In this document: piece after piece, positions 1,888-39,133 of the stretch
Position numbering within the stretch: position 1 is the first letter of the stretch
Layout: every line of letters starts with the position of its first letter
Source: a virus
Virus record (IMG/VR): IMGVR_UViG_3300037189_001648
Coordinates: 1-39,893 of that record
Direction: 5' to 3' (one strand)
Length of the DNA: 39,893 nucleotides
The notes under the pieces: model-generated
Told to the model about the DNA's origin: nothing
Databases searched by the model: none
What the model saw: only the letters and a program-made list of their open reading frames with translations
Program-made: the position numbers and the translations under genes

Positions 1888-1902
1888 TCTGTAAAACCTT
1901 TT

Positions 1903-1945
1903 AAGGGGGCAGGGGCTTAACGGTCTCTGCCCCTTTATTATTAAT
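1903..1945 (+). terminator. Rho-independent terminator after the capsid gene
   Basis: A 14-bp stem (left arm 1903-1916, right arm 1923-1936, including a few G-T wobbles) closes a six-base loop TTAACG and is followed by an AT-rich tail starting with TTT. It lies 15 bases after the capsid stop codon and would end or attenuate capsid transcription. Confidence 0.85.
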
Positions 1946-1950
1946 TAATC

Positions 1951-1959
1951 TGTTATAAT
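1951..1959 (+). promoter_or_regulatory. Extended -10 promoter for the head-tail connector operon
   Basis: TGTTATAAT: a TGn extended -10 element (1951-1953) with a perfect TATAAT (1954-1959). No convincing -35 box is seen at the right distance. The predicted start near 1966 leaves a short leader that contains AGGAGG just before the ATG at 1981. It follows the capsid terminator, so the next operon can be driven separately. Confidence 0.65.
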
Positions 1960-1980
1960 ATATATAAATAGGAGGTATTT

Positions 1981-5157: not shown

Positions 5158-5796
5158 ATGGCATATACACGTGGTTCAAGTGCAAACATCATTGTTGGTG
5201 CAGCTGCACTTTTTACATACGAGCCTGTTGGAGGAGCTTCACAGCTTACCGAAGCAGACTTGCCAAGCTACGTTGACGATGTATCGTACAGAACTACACT
5301 TTCTGACGACGCAGACTTCAGAAACGTTGGTTACACCATGAACGGTTTGGAAATTGTTTTCCAGCCTGATTTTGGTGAGGTGCAGGTCGACCAGGTTCTA
5401 GACGTTGCAAAGCTATACAAGCAGGGTATGCAGGTTAACCTAAACACAGCATTTGCTGAGGCAACATTGGAAAACTTGCTATTCTCACTAGCTGGTCAGG
5501 ACGAAGACTTGACTACCGTTGGTGGCAACCCAACCCTAAACCTATCTGCTGGTGACATTGGAGAATGTCCAGTAGAGCGTGGTCTAGTGGCTGTTGGTCC
5601 TGGTACAGGAGACTGTGCTCTAGGTGACCAGATCGAAAGAGTCTACGCCGCATACCGTGCGCTTTCAATTGAGAGTGTTACAGTATCTGCTAAGCGTGAC
5701 GAACCAACCATGTTCGAGGTTTCTTTCCGTCTGCTTCCAAACGATAACGCATCATATGGTAAGATCGTAGATCGCACCATTCCTGCTGCTTCGTAA
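5158..5796 (+). CDS. Major tail protein (tail tube)
   Basis: A 212-residue protein with the ribosome site AGAGGTGA just upstream. It starts MAYTRGSSANIIVGAAALFTYE (quoted only in part: AYTRGSSANIIVGAAALF) and shows alternating strands, an acidic loop (LTEADLPSYVDD), and a final strand block (ESVTVSAKRDEPTMFEVSF) as in tail-tube proteins that stack in hexameric rings around the tape measure. It is flanked upstream by the tail terminator gene and downstream by the two chaperone genes, the standard position. Two internal cysteines (about residues 141 and 154) are unusual but not diagnostic. A very strong terminator follows 11 bases after the stop. Confidence 0.75.
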   Translation: MAYTRGSSANIIVGAAALFTYEPVGGASQLTEADLPSYVDDVSYRTTLSDDADFRNVGYTMNGLEIVFQPDFGEVQVDQVLDVAKLYKQGMQVNLNTAFAEATLENLLFSLAGQDEDLTTVGGNPTLNLSAGDIGECPVERGLVAVGPGTGDCALGDQIERVYAAYRALSIESVTVSAKRDEPTMFEVSFRLLPNDNASYGKIVDRTIPAAS

Positions 5797-5806
5797 TAAA
5801 ACTAAT

Positions 5807-5853
5807 AAAGATAAGGCTATTCGGTCATTTGTTGACTGGGTAGCCTTATTTTT
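5807..5853 (+). terminator. Long-stem rho-independent terminator after the major tail gene
   Basis: The arms 5807-5827 and 5833-5853 pair over about 21 bases (perfect ATAAGGCTA / TAGCCTTAT core, with G-T wobbles elsewhere) around a five-base loop TTTGT, and the right arm ends in TTTTT. It ends the capsid-to-tail-tube transcription unit. Its right arm contains the -35 box and spacer of the next promoter. Confidence 0.85.
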
Positions 5854-5861
5854 GTTATAAT
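5832..5861 (+). promoter_or_regulatory. Promoter with leaderless start for the first chaperone gene
   Basis: TTGACT (5832-5837), an 18-base spacer, then TATAAT (5856-5861) preceded by TG plus one base (5853-5855). The predicted transcription start, seven bases after the last T, is 5868, which is the A of the next gene's ATG. There is no ribosome site, so the mRNA is predicted to be leaderless, a common mode in Actinobacteria. Confidence 0.75.
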
Positions 5862-5867
5862 GGTTAG

Positions 5868-23547: not shown

Positions 23548-24093
23548 TTGGCAGCCAACGATAAGCGATCAATAGAAGAAGAAAAATATAACGAGGCTCC
23601 AGTAATTCCTGGCAACAAAAAGGTCTGGTTCTTAAATGGTGACCTTGTAAGGATCCATCACCTGAATAAGTCTAATGGAATTATGTCTGTTTACAACATA
23701 ACCAAAGACCAGATTGAAAGCTGTCTTATTAGTGATTTTAAGAAGAACAGGGAAAGAGCCTATACCGTAGGACAGACTGCAGACCTTGTAAACAGGCACA
23801 AGAAGTATATGCCTAGTTTGATGAAAAGAGGCGTCATTCCCTTTCCTATGGGCTCCCAGAAGGGCGGAGAGAGGGGCTGGCAGGTTAGGTCCTACTACTC
23901 TGAATCACAGGTCAGAGAAATCCGTGACATCCTTGCCTCTTACCATCAGGGTAGACCAAGGAAAGATAAGCTTATTACAAATGATATAACCCCAACACGT
24001 CAGGAGTTGACAAGGCGTATGGGTGATGGTATACTGACTTATACGAGAACAGAAGACGGCAGATTCATTCCGATTTGGAGTGAATCTATTTAG
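23548..24093 (+). CDS. DNA-binding regulator with MerR-like winged-helix, TTG start
   Basis: A 181-residue protein beginning with TTG at 23548; GGCGGGG at 23534-23540 gives a usable ribosome site and the ATG at 23543 runs into a stop. Residues about 70-130 (AYTVGQTADLVNRHKKYMP ... RGWQVRSYYSESQVREI) match a MerR-type helix-turn-helix, with an SQKGGERGW wing. The C-terminus is basic and includes a second helical part. It is the first gene after the late tail block and the first of the replication block. Its position suggests a phage regulator that switches between these sets, but no target site is proven. Confidence 0.65.
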   Translation: MAANDKRSIEEEKYNEAPVIPGNKKVWFLNGDLVRIHHLNKSNGIMSVYNITKDQIESCLISDFKKNRERAYTVGQTADLVNRHKKYMPSLMKRGVIPFPMGSQKGGERGWQVRSYYSESQVREIRDILASYHQGRPRKDKLITNDITPTRQELTRRMGDGILTYTRTEDGRFIPIWSESI

Positions 24094-35456: not shown

Positions 35457-35979
35457 AGATAAACTAATAGAGCATTTAGATGAAGTAAATAAGGTCGTAG
35501 AAGAATACCTTAAGGGTAATGATCCAACACAGATATCAAAAGAGCTTGTGATACCAAGACAAAAGGTCGTAGCCCATATCAATGAGTGGAAGCAGATGGC
35601 TTCCGACAATGCCGTCATTAGAGCCAGGGCAAAGGAAGCGCTTGCAGGAGCAGACACACACTATAACAAACTAATACAAAAGGCTTACGAAGTTATAGAT
35701 GATGCCACCACCACAGCAAACCTTACAGCAAAAACATCAGCAATTAAGCTGGTATTGGATATTGAAGCTAAAAGAATTGACATGCTGCAGAAAGCTGGTC
35801 TGCTAGAAAACAAAGAGCTAGCAGAAGAGATGCTGGAGATTGAGAGAAAGCAGGATATCCTGGTCGGTATTCTAAGAGACATAGCTGCAGAGTATCCACA
35901 GATTCGTGATGAGATTATGCGTAGGCTATCTGATGTCTCTAAAGAAAAAGAGGTAATCACAATTGTCCACAACGTTTAA
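35446..35979 (+). CDS. Terminase small subunit (candidate)
   Basis: A 177-residue protein immediately before the large terminase gene, overlapping it by 17 bases. The N-terminus contains a helix-turn-helix (EEYLKGNDPTQISKELVIPR with QKVVAHINEWK after it) for packaging-site binding; the rest is a long helical, coiled-coil-like domain that could form the usual ring (NKELAEEMLEIERKQDILV). Size fits small terminases. It would recognise the packaging start and load the large subunit. Identity rests on position and layout. Confidence 0.65.
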   Translation: MSTEDKLIEHLDEVNKVVEEYLKGNDPTQISKELVIPRQKVVAHINEWKQMASDNAVIRARAKEALAGADTHYNKLIQKAYEVIDDATTTANLTAKTSAIKLVLDIEAKRIDMLQKAGLLENKELAEEMLEIERKQDILVGILRDIAAEYPQIRDEIMRRLSDVSKEKEVITIVHNV

Positions 35980-37747
35980 TGAATTCTTTGAGGTTCTTAA
36001 GGCAGACAACTTTGAGGAGAAGCCTGTAGACGCAAAGACATTTGTTGAAGGTGAGAATTATCTTAATCAGCCTCCGCTATCTGAAATCCAGTATCAGATT
36101 GTAGAAGCTATGAGCCAGATCTACAAGCAAGAAGATCTTATTGATCTTATGGGCGATGAAGAGGGTAGAAGATACTACAAGAAGTATACAAAAAATGAAG
36201 TTATTCTACAGCTGGGCAAGGGATCTGGAAAAGACTTTACATCTACCGTGGCCTGTGCCTACATCGTATACAAGCTTCTATGTCTAAAGGATCCAGCAAG
36301 ATACTTTGGCAAGCCATCTGGAGATGCTATTGATATTATTAACGTAGCTATTAACGCACAGCAGGCTAAGAACGTTTTCTTTAAAGGGTTCAAGACTAAG
36401 GTAGAAAAGTCTCCATGGTTTGCAGGAAAGTTTTATGCAAAGGCAGATAGCGTAGAGTTCGATAAGGCTATTACTGTTTACTCTGGTCACTCAGAACGAG
36501 AATCTCACGAGGGTCTTAACCTAATCCTAGCAGTTCTTGATGAGATTTCTGGATTCGCAAATGAGGTTGGGACTGGTAATGACCAGGGTAAAACAGCAGA
36601 CAACATCTACAAGGCCTTCCGTGCATCCGTAGACTCTCGTTTCCCAGACCTTGGCAAGGTTGCTTTGCTATCGTTCCCACGCTATCCAGGAGACTTTATT
36701 TCTCAGAGATACGAAGATGTCATCATGGAAAAAGAAGTTGTCGCCAAGACTCACAAGTTTATTATGAACGAAGATCTTCCAGAAGATGCCCCAGGAAATT
36801 CTATGGAAATATCTTGGGATGAAGATAACATAATCTCTTACAAGTATCCAGGAATGTTTGCGCTAAAGAAACCAACGTGGGAAGTTAATCCAACTAGAAA
36901 GATTGATGACTTCAAGCTAGCTTTTTATACAGATCTCGGAGATGCCATGCAGCGTTTTGCTTGCGTCCCAACCTACTCATCTGATGCATTTTTTAAGCAG
37001 ACAGAAAAGGTTCGTGAAGCAATGATGCTTCGTAATCCTCTGGATGCCTTTAGAAGATTTGATGAAACGTTTGTTCCAGATCCAGAAAAGATTTACTATG
37101 TCCATGCCGACCTTGCTCAGCAACACGACAAGTGTGCGGTAGCAATTGCTCACGTAGATAAATGGGTAAACATTCAGGTTATTAAGGACTACCAGCAGGT
37201 AGCACCAGTCGTTGTTGTGGATGCAGTAGCATACTGGGAGCCAAGGGTTGAAGGCCCAGTAAACCTATCTGAGGTTAAGCAATGGATTCAAAACCTAAGA
37301 AGGCTAGGATTTAATATCGGAATGGTTAGCTTTGACCGCTGGCAGTCATTTGATATCCAGAATGAGCTAAAGCAAGTGGGGCTTAGAACAGAGACGGTAT
37401 CTGTTGCTAAAAAGCACTATGAGGATATGGCAATGCTCATATATGAAGAAAGGCTAGCTATGCCAGCCATAGACCTCCTGTATGAAGAGCTAACAGAACT
37501 TAAGATTATGAAGAATAATAAGGTTGACCACCCACGTAAAAAGTCTAAGGACTTGGCTGACGCCGTTTGTGGGGCGGTATTTGGGGCAATATCCCACACC
37601 CCTAGAGACCAAAACCTTGAAGTAGAGATTCATACTTTCAAAGATAGGCCTAAAACACAGGTTGACAACGAAAGAAGCAATGTGATACAATATAAGCCTA
37701 TCCCAAAAGAAGTAAAAGAATATTTGGATAGATTTAATCTAATGTAA
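35963..37747 (+). CDS. terL: Terminase large subunit, DNA-packaging motor
   Basis: A 594-residue protein starting at TTG 35963, with GAGGT eight bases upstream. Walker A is GKGSGKD (residues 85-91) and Walker B LILAVLDE (187-194, D193 and E194). The nuclease domain (RNase H-like) has HADLAQQHDKCAVAIAH (D383), MVSFDRW (about 456) and KDLADAVCG (D533). It packages DNA into the head and cuts it. It lies 36 kb after the capsid block in this window, away from the structural genes; in many phages it starts the late operon. The end contains the promoter of the next gene. Confidence 0.9.
   Translation: MSTTFNEFFEVLKADNFEEKPVDAKTFVEGENYLNQPPLSEIQYQIVEAMSQIYKQEDLIDLMGDEEGRRYYKKYTKNEVILQLGKGSGKDFTSTVACAYIVYKLLCLKDPARYFGKPSGDAIDIINVAINAQQAKNVFFKGFKTKVEKSPWFAGKFYAKADSVEFDKAITVYSGHSERESHEGLNLILAVLDEISGFANEVGTGNDQGKTADNIYKAFRASVDSRFPDLGKVALLSFPRYPGDFISQRYEDVIMEKEVVAKTHKFIMNEDLPEDAPGNSMEISWDEDNIISYKYPGMFALKKPTWEVNPTRKIDDFKLAFYTDLGDAMQRFACVPTYSSDAFFKQTEKVREAMMLRNPLDAFRRFDETFVPDPEKIYYVHADLAQQHDKCAVAIAHVDKWVNIQVIKDYQQVAPVVVVDAVAYWEPRVEGPVNLSEVKQWIQNLRRLGFNIGMVSFDRWQSFDIQNELKQVGLRTETVSVAKKHYEDMAMLIYEERLAMPAIDLLYEELTELKIMKNNKVDHPRKKSKDLADAVCGAVFGAISHTPRDQNLEVEIHTFKDRPKTQVDNERSNVIQYKPIPKEVKEYLDRFNLM
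37662..37691 (+). promoter_or_regulatory. Strong promoter inside the terL 3' end
   Basis: TTGACA (37662-37667), an 18-base spacer, then TACAAT (37686-37691) with TGa before it. The predicted start is near 37698, giving a 67-base leader with AGGAG at about 37751 before the ATG at 37765. This is the best -35/-10 pair in the window. Confidence 0.75.
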
Positions 37748-37764
37748 ATAGGAGAAATAAATAA

Positions 37765-38625
37765 ATGAATTCATTTAAGAATCCACTAATCGCTATTGCC
37801 TCTGCAGTAGCTCTTGCAGGAGCTATGCTCGTGGCTGTTCCTGCAAATGCTAATACCGCAACGCTAACTATTGCAGGATCTTCTGCTACTGGTGGAACAA
37901 CTGCAGCAACTGCAATTGCTGTTCCAGTTCCAGCAGATAACGATGTTAGCTCTGCAGATGCACTTCGCATTGCACTTACTGGTGTTGCAACAAACACCAC
38001 TGTAACCGCAACTACAACTAACCTAAAGCTTGTGACAAAGGTCACCACTGGTTCAGACGTAGTTAAGGCAGATGCTGGAGCATCTTCTGTATCTGTAAAC
38101 ACAGGTAGCGGAACAACTGCAGACATCTACGTGTACACCACATCAACTGCAACTGGTTCTGTATCAGTTTCTGTTGGTGGAAACACAACTGTTTACCACG
38201 TTAAGGGAACAGCTGGCCCAGCATACACAGTTTCTGTGACTGCTCCAGCTTTTGCAGGACTAGGGTCTGCAGTAAACCTAACTGCGACAGCTCAGGACAT
38301 CTTTGGAAATGCTGTGGAGAATGCTGCAATTACCGCAACAGTTCTTCGTGGCACTGTTACAACACAGTTTGCCTGGAATGCAACTGACAAGGTCTACAAG
38401 GCTGTTGTTACTGCTCCAGCAACAGCTGGAAACGACTTTGGTGTAGCCAGAATTTCTGCAACTGCAGTAGCTGGACTAGCTAAGCCAGTAACAGAGGTAT
38501 CGTTTACTGTAAGCGTACTCAACCTAAACGATGCAATCACTGCTGCAAATGCAAAGATTGCAGAGCTAGAGGCCAAGGTAGCCAAGCTAGCTAAGCGAGT
38601 AGCTAAGCTAAAGAAAAAGAAGTAA
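37765..38625 (+). CDS. Secreted Ig-like surface protein with coiled-coil tail
   Basis: A 286-residue protein. Residues 1-29 are a classic Sec signal peptide (MNSFKNPLIAIASAVALAGA, then MLVAVPANA) with a predicted cut after A29. Residues 30-255 are Thr/Ser/Ala/Val-rich and beta-like, with an Ig-type repeat (FGNAVENAAITATVLRGTV, 181-199). Residues 257-286 form a Lys-rich leucine-zipper-like coiled coil (AKIAELEAKVAKLAKRVAKL). This layout resembles cell-surface proteins of aquatic Actinobacteria. It has its own promoter and terminator, so it is a separate, highly expressed unit. It may modify the host surface, for instance to block superinfection, or be a virion-associated protein. Function is inferred only. 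Confidence 0.75.
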   Translation: MNSFKNPLIAIASAVALAGAMLVAVPANANTATLTIAGSSATGGTTAATAIAVPVPADNDVSSADALRIALTGVATNTTVTATTTNLKLVTKVTTGSDVVKADAGASSVSVNTGSGTTADIYVYTTSTATGSVSVSVGGNTTVYHVKGTAGPAYTVSVTAPAFAGLGSAVNLTATAQDIFGNAVENAAITATVLRGTVTTQFAWNATDKVYKAVVTAPATAGNDFGVARISATAVAGLAKPVTEVSFTVSVLNLNDAITAANAKIAELEAKVAKLAKRVAKLKKKK

Positions 38626-38636
38626 CCTATTAATTG

Positions 38637-38668
38637 AGTGGGGGCATCGAAAGGTGCCCCCATTTATA
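38637..38668 (+). terminator. Rho-independent terminator after the secreted protein gene
   Basis: The arms TGGGGGCA (38639-38646) and TGCCCCCA (38655-38662) form a perfect 8-bp stem around a short loop, followed by TTTATATT. It is 12 bases after the stop, isolating the secreted protein gene from nrdI. Confidence 0.85.
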
Positions 38669-38685
38669 TTATAAAAATCATTGAT

Positions 38686-38714
38686 TTGCAACAAGTTTAA
38701 AAGAGAGGTATAAT
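38686..38714 (+). promoter_or_regulatory. Candidate promoter overlapping the nrdI start
   Basis: TTGCAA (38686-38691), a 17-base spacer and TATAAT (38709-38714), then two bases and the ATG at 38717. The predicted start (about 38721) would fall just after the ATG, so it does not fit a simple leaderless mRNA. The AGAGG at 38704-38708 is the nrdI ribosome site and overlaps this box. Either the transcription start is closer than usual or nrdI is served by an upstream promoter. Confidence 0.35.
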
Positions 38715-38716
38715 AG

Positions 38717-39133
38717 ATGTCCATCAACATAGTATACTTTTCAAACTACTCTGGTAATACTAAAAAATTTGTGGAGAAACTGGGAGACAGCTTTGGGAAT
38801 GTTCACAGAATTCCTATCGATTGGGATCAATCTGATCCCTTGGTTGCCCCCAGTGATTTTGTATTGTTTATTCCTACCTATGGTGGCGGCTCTGAAAGCT
38901 CAGCAGTCCCTAGGCAAGTCAAGAAGTTTTTAAATATTTCCCAAAACAGGGATAACCTTAGGGGTATCGTTGGATTTGGGAACACCAATTTTGGAGAGCA
39001 CTTCTGCAAAGCCGCAGAGGTTATCTCTCAAAAAACTGGGGTGCCAATTATCGCTAGAGTAGAGATATTTGGAACACCAGAAGACCTAAATATTGTAAAA
39101 GAAAGAATGAGGATGTTGTATGACAACGAATAA
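38717..39133 (+). CDS. nrdI: NrdI, flavodoxin-like activator of class Ib ribonucleotide reductase
   Basis: A 138-residue flavodoxin-fold protein. FMN-binding loops are SNYSGNT (residues 9-15), IPTYGGG (52-58) and [10 protein letters not shown] (87-96), as in NrdI. It supplies an oxidant to the NrdF metal site in class Ib enzymes. It starts with a ribosome site AGAGG and overlaps nrdE by 14 bases. NrdF would be expected beyond the right edge. Confidence 0.9.

Follow-up and report, generated by a model that had tools for sequence, protein, structure and literature searches.

Why does a phage carry, between two genes that are neighbors in related phages, a gene for a putatively secreted Ig-like protein with its own transcription signals? 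The window, that is, the whole stretch of 39,893 nucleotides that we analyzed (positions 1 to 39,893 of IMG/VR virus record IMGVR_UViG_3300037189_001648), derives from a freshwater phage. The gene (37765..38625; this and all features below lie on the plus strand) encodes a protein of 286 aa, P0001. It is preceded by an AGGAG ribosome-binding site (RBS) and spacer (37751..37764) and starts 17 nt past the stop of terL (37747). The upstream neighbor, terL (35963..37747), is fixed; downstream lies nrdI (38717..39133), which directly follows terL in phages lacking the Ig-like gene. The base composition of the gene is unlike that of its neighbors: its GC content is 0.462 versus 0.415 and 0.400, and its GC3 0.275 versus about 0.40, although amino-acid bias is part of the cause and the GC3 of the tape-measure gene is likewise low (0.31).

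P0001 begins with a Sec-type signal peptide (residues 1-29, 37765..37851; N-terminus MNSFKNPLIAIASAVALAGAMLVAVPANA), with K5, a hydrophobic stretch at residues 7-24, and a cut site after ANA. This is the best-conserved part of the family alignment, and every full-length representative retains it, including those in which the rest of the protein has been replaced. P0001 has no lipobox and, as it has no cysteine, is not a lipoprotein. Export to the envelope is predicted from the sequence of the signal peptide, and secretion is backed by the conserved signal peptide together with the fold. The AlphaFold model, based on 49 aligned sequences, has a mean pLDDT of 88, the low-confidence portion being the signal peptide, and shows two beta sandwiches followed by a helix (254-285). 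The first beta-sandwich domain spans residues 30-150 (37852..38214) and the second, Ig-like and resembling Big_1/Invasin_D3 both in the model and in Pfam matches of relatives, residues 151-253 (38215..38523). According to the model and the alignment, residues 254-286 (38524..38622) form a Lys-rich C-terminal helix (AKIAELEAKVAKLAKRVAKLKKKK), in place of which most relatives have a longer coil. The mature protein contains 19.5% Ala, 17.1% Thr, and 13.2% Val. Three features anticipated by the original prediction, a signal peptide, a Thr/Val-rich beta region, and a Lys-rich tail, are thus present, though the Lys-rich tail is particular to the window copy. Modeling a relative that has the typical C-terminus gave the same two domains, a longer helix, and an extended conformation of the final ten residues.

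The modeled fold is an Ig-like beta sandwich of the Big_1/invasin type. The model superposes on invasin (1cwv; Z 11.6, 177 residues aligned, rmsd 7.4 across two domains) and on FdeC (4e9l; Z 11.0, 178 aligned, rmsd 3.9), and intimin, InvD, and the S-layer protein SbsC are also among its structural matches (Foldseek, VIA-align). As the Ig domains of galactosidases reach similar scores in single-domain matches, the fold indicates an Ig-like domain of the adhesin type and no function. In Pfam, P0001 itself does not match Big_1 (PF02369); weak matches were obtained for relatives, to Big_1 in 16/49 and to Invasin_D3 in 5/49, the relative L119 scoring 21.9 bits for Big_1, below the cut-off of 34.9. 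No wall-anchor domain was recognised in P0001, and Pfam, NCBIfam, and PHROGs contain no whole-protein description of the family. We rejected the Pfam matches of P0001 to SlyX and DivIC, far below cut-off, as coiled-coil noise, and the sole match of the family profile among PDB chains, a coil match to AcrIF23, as not meaningful (E 0.15). LPxTG-like strings in 14 representatives were not retained as sorting signals, those seen being located mid-protein.

Between terL and nrdI the gene forms its own transcription unit, as predicted, with a promoter and a hairpin conserved in relatives. The sigma-70 promoter has an extended -10 box (TTGACA-18-TACAAT, with TG; 37662..37691). It was correctly located, but it sits inside the 3′ end of the terL coding sequence, and it is not the best of the window, since the sites at 24007, 26780, 5832, and 6535 also score 11/12. 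The consensus match alone is no evidence: the window contains 47 promoter-like sites, against 41 +/- 7 in shuffled sequence. It is the conservation in relatives that makes this promoter more than a chance match. In 89 of 105 distinct gene-bearing loci, TTGACA stands exactly 86 nt ahead of the terL stop with an extended -10 after it, while TTGACA occurs at this position in 0/11 loci without the Ig-like gene (Fisher P 1.7e-8, relatedness of the loci being ignored). Third-codon-position entropy falls to 0.51 bits inside the promoter versus 1.40 bits outside, which indicates that the promoter DNA itself is constrained beyond its coding for TerL. Past the stop codon, an intrinsic terminator hairpin (TGGGGGCATCGAAAGGTGCCCCCA plus flanking pairs; about 38636..38661) folds with about -25 kcal/mol. 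All representatives whose sequence extends past the stop codon have a hairpin at this place, many with TTTTTT; the window's own T tract (ATTTATATT) is weak, and the terminator was not listed by the consensus scanner, so that it was rightly predicted without being "perfect". We consider both signals real. A promoter-like site between the terminator and nrdI (TTGCAA-17-TATAAT, 38686..38714; consensus match only) may allow the downstream gene to restart transcription. Among the gaps of the window that were folded, strong hairpins appeared only behind the major capsid, the Ig-domain tail-type, and the P0001 genes, which suggests a high output of P0001. The two former genes (window 1888-1960, major capsid protein; 5158-5867, Ig-domain protein, phrog_2175) are themselves candidate high-output units, with the promoter-like sites 5832 and 6535 nearby.

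Is P0001 a lone added gene, as first proposed? It belongs instead to a widespread family, a standard resident of the terL slot, with members at more than 150 IMG/VR loci, mostly directly 3′ of terL. Forward scans of IMG/VR yielded >100 relatives; in each of the 79 loci examined from them, terL is immediately followed by the Ig-like gene, mostly with nrdI and nrdA next. These scans are more biased than the reverse search by terL, which gave about 75 readable loci. The Ig-like gene is present in most of these; in 11, nrdI begins within about 20 nt of terL with no gene between, and one (L159) is arranged otherwise. The gene is single copy in the contigs checked, and a check of gene-less contigs of up to 96 kb found no copy elsewhere in them. 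On the terL tree, the gene-less phages occupy several places, implying at least six changes, three of them forced by well-supported branches, and one gene-less lineage is sister to the window's own clade. The gene is therefore not conserved in all members of this phage group, and it is dispensable, as phages without it persist. INPHARED contained no relative of P0001 or of two other variants; thus, no isolated phage carrying the gene is known from this collection.

The surroundings of the gene also vary. In one clade (L119:7692-9755, L127:7259-9178, L131:6986-9085, L151:7029-9179), nrdI is replaced after the Ig-like gene by a gene for a large secreted-looking protein, in which a PA14 domain was matched in L119, L127, and L151. 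Some of these proteins end in GANSPGSRGGRKW, others in a hydrophobic C-terminus, and in L127 the next gene encodes a small protein that weakly matches a holin. At L036:7026-9071, L068:7076-9121, and L159:5893-7950, a B12-dependent ribonucleotide reductase stands where the window has nrdI and its class I genes; the module for nucleotide reduction is therefore exchanged at the terL site as well.

The two ends of the protein are similar between phages, whereas middle parts and coil lengths differ greatly. Most relatives end in the coil plus the motif YNxLAxKWNKK(F/N)PKxKVxLxK, of which the window copy lacks the typical form. The final Lys of KWNxK(F/N)PKAKVxLxK is near-invariant (46/49, e.g., L120:5800-6957 and L065:6001-6927). 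A search with the C-terminal motif gave 120 viral stretches, and in 80/80 fetched loci the motif was exactly C-terminal, in proteins with family-like ends. It is essentially absent from bacterial genomes; we judge three genome matches (Flavobacteriales, Lactococcus, and Bacteroidales) to be probably due to chance, in view of their taxa and of about one match being expected. That this end holds the protein to the wall is a guess. Some of these motif-bearing genes occupy a second genomic site in another phage lineage, behind genes for a secreted subtilase, in some cases a pyrimidine-dimer glycosylase, and thioredoxin. To our knowledge, a secreted subtilase is unusual in a phage. The second-site phages have a terL about 56% like that of the window and no Ig-like copy behind it. 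In this context (L215:4680-9132, L217, L225, L244, L251, L182), a gene for an HslV-family peptidase is also found upstream of the Ig-like gene.

Several comparisons show that the gene moves horizontally, in a moron-like manner. The window and L009 share 97-99% of their DNA across the ORF versus about 79% in the flanks. The common block begins at the RBS; as the L009 contig ends in the terminator, only this left edge is defined. The two ORFs differ by 21 synonymous and 0 nonsynonymous changes and encode identical proteins, purifying selection thus preserving the protein. L217, from the second site, and L120, from the terL site, are identical at 95% of residues and 93.8% of the DNA over 1177 bp; the likeness starts 11 nt ahead of the start codon and ends 5 nt past the stop, with no relation between the promoter and terminator regions (no terL is seen on the L217 contig itself). 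Because the likeness ends at the ORF, the travelling unit is the ORF, and regulation is supplied by the slot. Similarity of terL and similarity of the Ig-like gene are weakly correlated (Spearman 0.28 over 4465 pairs), with discordant cases both ways. Single exchange cases could be assembly chimeras, but chimerism as a general explanation is argued against by a pattern that spans many contigs and two contexts. The original proposal of a moron thus holds for the presence or absence of the gene at a precise site, its exchange, and its second site, but not for the promoter and terminator, which do not travel.

What could such a protein do? Its swapping among many phages, combined with its design for export, suggests that it probably alters the surface of the infected cell. 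The reading we favor, with a probability of roughly 0.4 and by analogy with known exclusion proteins, is that P0001 would be secreted to coat infected cells and thereby block superinfection or re-adsorption. The Sec system of the host would export this accessory protein, which would remain on the surface of the infected actinobacterium or be released around it. Two Ig-like domains would be carried on a helical stalk, and the basic C-terminal end may hold the protein to the cell wall. The dedicated strong promoter and terminator would probably ensure a large output, independent of the packaging and ribonucleotide-reductase operons. The phage receptor could then be masked or jammed on the infected cell and on debris; rival phages would be shut out and progeny not wasted. 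The exposed domains would diversify, and whole ORFs would be swapped under resident promoters. Selection that keeps the protein, together with a variable middle between similar ends, is what would be expected of a surface-exposed protein facing an antagonist.

Roles in adhesion and surface change are plausible too. P0001 may be an adhesin or aggregation factor, causing infected cells to adhere to one another, to particles, or to uninfected cells and so aiding the spread of progeny instead of exclusion. Its fold is nearest to the adhesins invasin, FdeC, and intimin, its stalk varies in length, and a secreted PA14-domain protein is encoded next to it in one clade. However, invasin-type Ig domains also serve as plain spacers, and the tip of P0001 contains no recognised binding domain; we regard this reading as unlikely. 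The occurrence of Ig-like domains in many virion proteins, phage structural proteins commonly having them, counts against the coat reading and raises the alternative of an Ig-like decoration or tail protein whose N-terminus merely resembles a signal peptide. The gene adjoins terL, and its strong promoter and terminator resemble those of the capsid and Ig-domain tail-type genes. Yet the N-terminus is a textbook Sec signal kept throughout the full-length representatives, and the gene lies apart from the structural gene block and is missing in sister phages with intact neighbors, which makes a virion part distinctly improbable. The coat reading is also opposed by relatives in which a further secreted protein and a lysis-type module adjoin the Ig-like gene, an arrangement that fits a helper of lysis or exit acting late on the wall or membrane. 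In L127 the gene is followed by the PA14 protein and the small protein with the weak holin match, and in L223 by genes for a secreted protein, a small protein, and a CHAP endolysin; a basic C-terminal end would suit such a role. In the window and most relatives, however, the neighbors are terL and ribonucleotide reductase genes, the protein has no enzyme domain, and lysis factors do not usually diversify in sequence or get swapped. We consider this role very doubtful.

The original prediction saw P0001 as host-derived. The host is likely an actinobacterium, judging from gene content and similarity: whiB, a marker of actinophages (PMC6802176), is present in 10/12 long relatives, although absent from the window fragment, and the terL of the window is nearest to those of Streptomyces phages (nearest named terL about 55%), which in the two inspected have other genes 3′ of terL. 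When 85,000 genomes of bacteria and archaea (GTDB) were scanned with two patterns, which catch 42/63 and 27/63 of the phage representatives, respectively, no relative of P0001 emerged. Within the limits of these scans, close relatives occur only in phage contigs, an outcome that the original prediction had itself named as refuting, and a host origin is not supported. Capture of a surface protein from the actinobacterial host, kept as a moron for surface conversion, would agree with the signal peptide and Ig-like architecture, the presence/absence pattern and mobility, and the deviating composition (GC 0.46 vs 0.41; GC3 0.28 vs 0.39), but is highly improbable given these negative scans, the lack of lysogeny genes among the window genes examined, and a promoter and terminator that stay put when the gene moves.

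The coat reading can be extended to a dedicated slot in freshwater actinophages, whose variants would be "coat types" each excluding particular competing phages, like surface serotypes. This extension is rather speculative and, on balance, doubtful; if it is true, a coat-type slot with its promoter hidden in the end of terL would serve swaps even between distantly related phages. Some of the commonest bacteria of lakes are actinobacteria whose populations are shaped by such freshwater phages. As a widespread, uncharacterised, and swappable protein, presumably of the cell surface and under a conserved strong promoter, P0001 and its relatives offer a concrete candidate for phage-phage competition there, and the conserved slot is easy to survey in metagenomes and metatranscriptomes.

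Like phage morons (PMC7067206), the gene is an extra one between genes that adjoin in relatives, with its own promoter and terminator and horizontal movement; unlike them, the promoter and terminator belong to the slot and not to the moving gene, and there is no sign of lysogeny. A hypervariable Ig-domain protein gene is similarly found in a Thermococcales module with a biological-conflict context; this module is archaeal, encodes a large multi-Ig protein, and is not a phage slot (PMC8416519). CwpV of C. difficile, a Gram-positive surface protein of variable types, stops phage DNA entry (PMC4737114), but it is host-encoded, phase-variable, anchored by PF04122, much larger, and unrelated in sequence to P0001. 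Both beta domains of P0001 superpose on the Ig domains of invasin and FdeC (Big_1, PF02369; Invasin_D3, PF09134). Unlike invasin and intimin, P0001 has no outer-membrane barrel, only two Ig domains, and no lectin-like tip, and its family has a helical tail with a family-specific C-terminal motif. The lipoprotein Llp of phage T5 jams the receptor FhuA from the periplasmic side, resulting in superinfection exclusion (PMC9586334). P0001, Ig-like and devoid of Cys or lipobox, has no sequence relation to Llp, and exclusion is proposed for it by analogy only. Like Llp, however, it would be a small exported phage accessory protein, whose proposed site of action is the infected cell surface together with cell debris.
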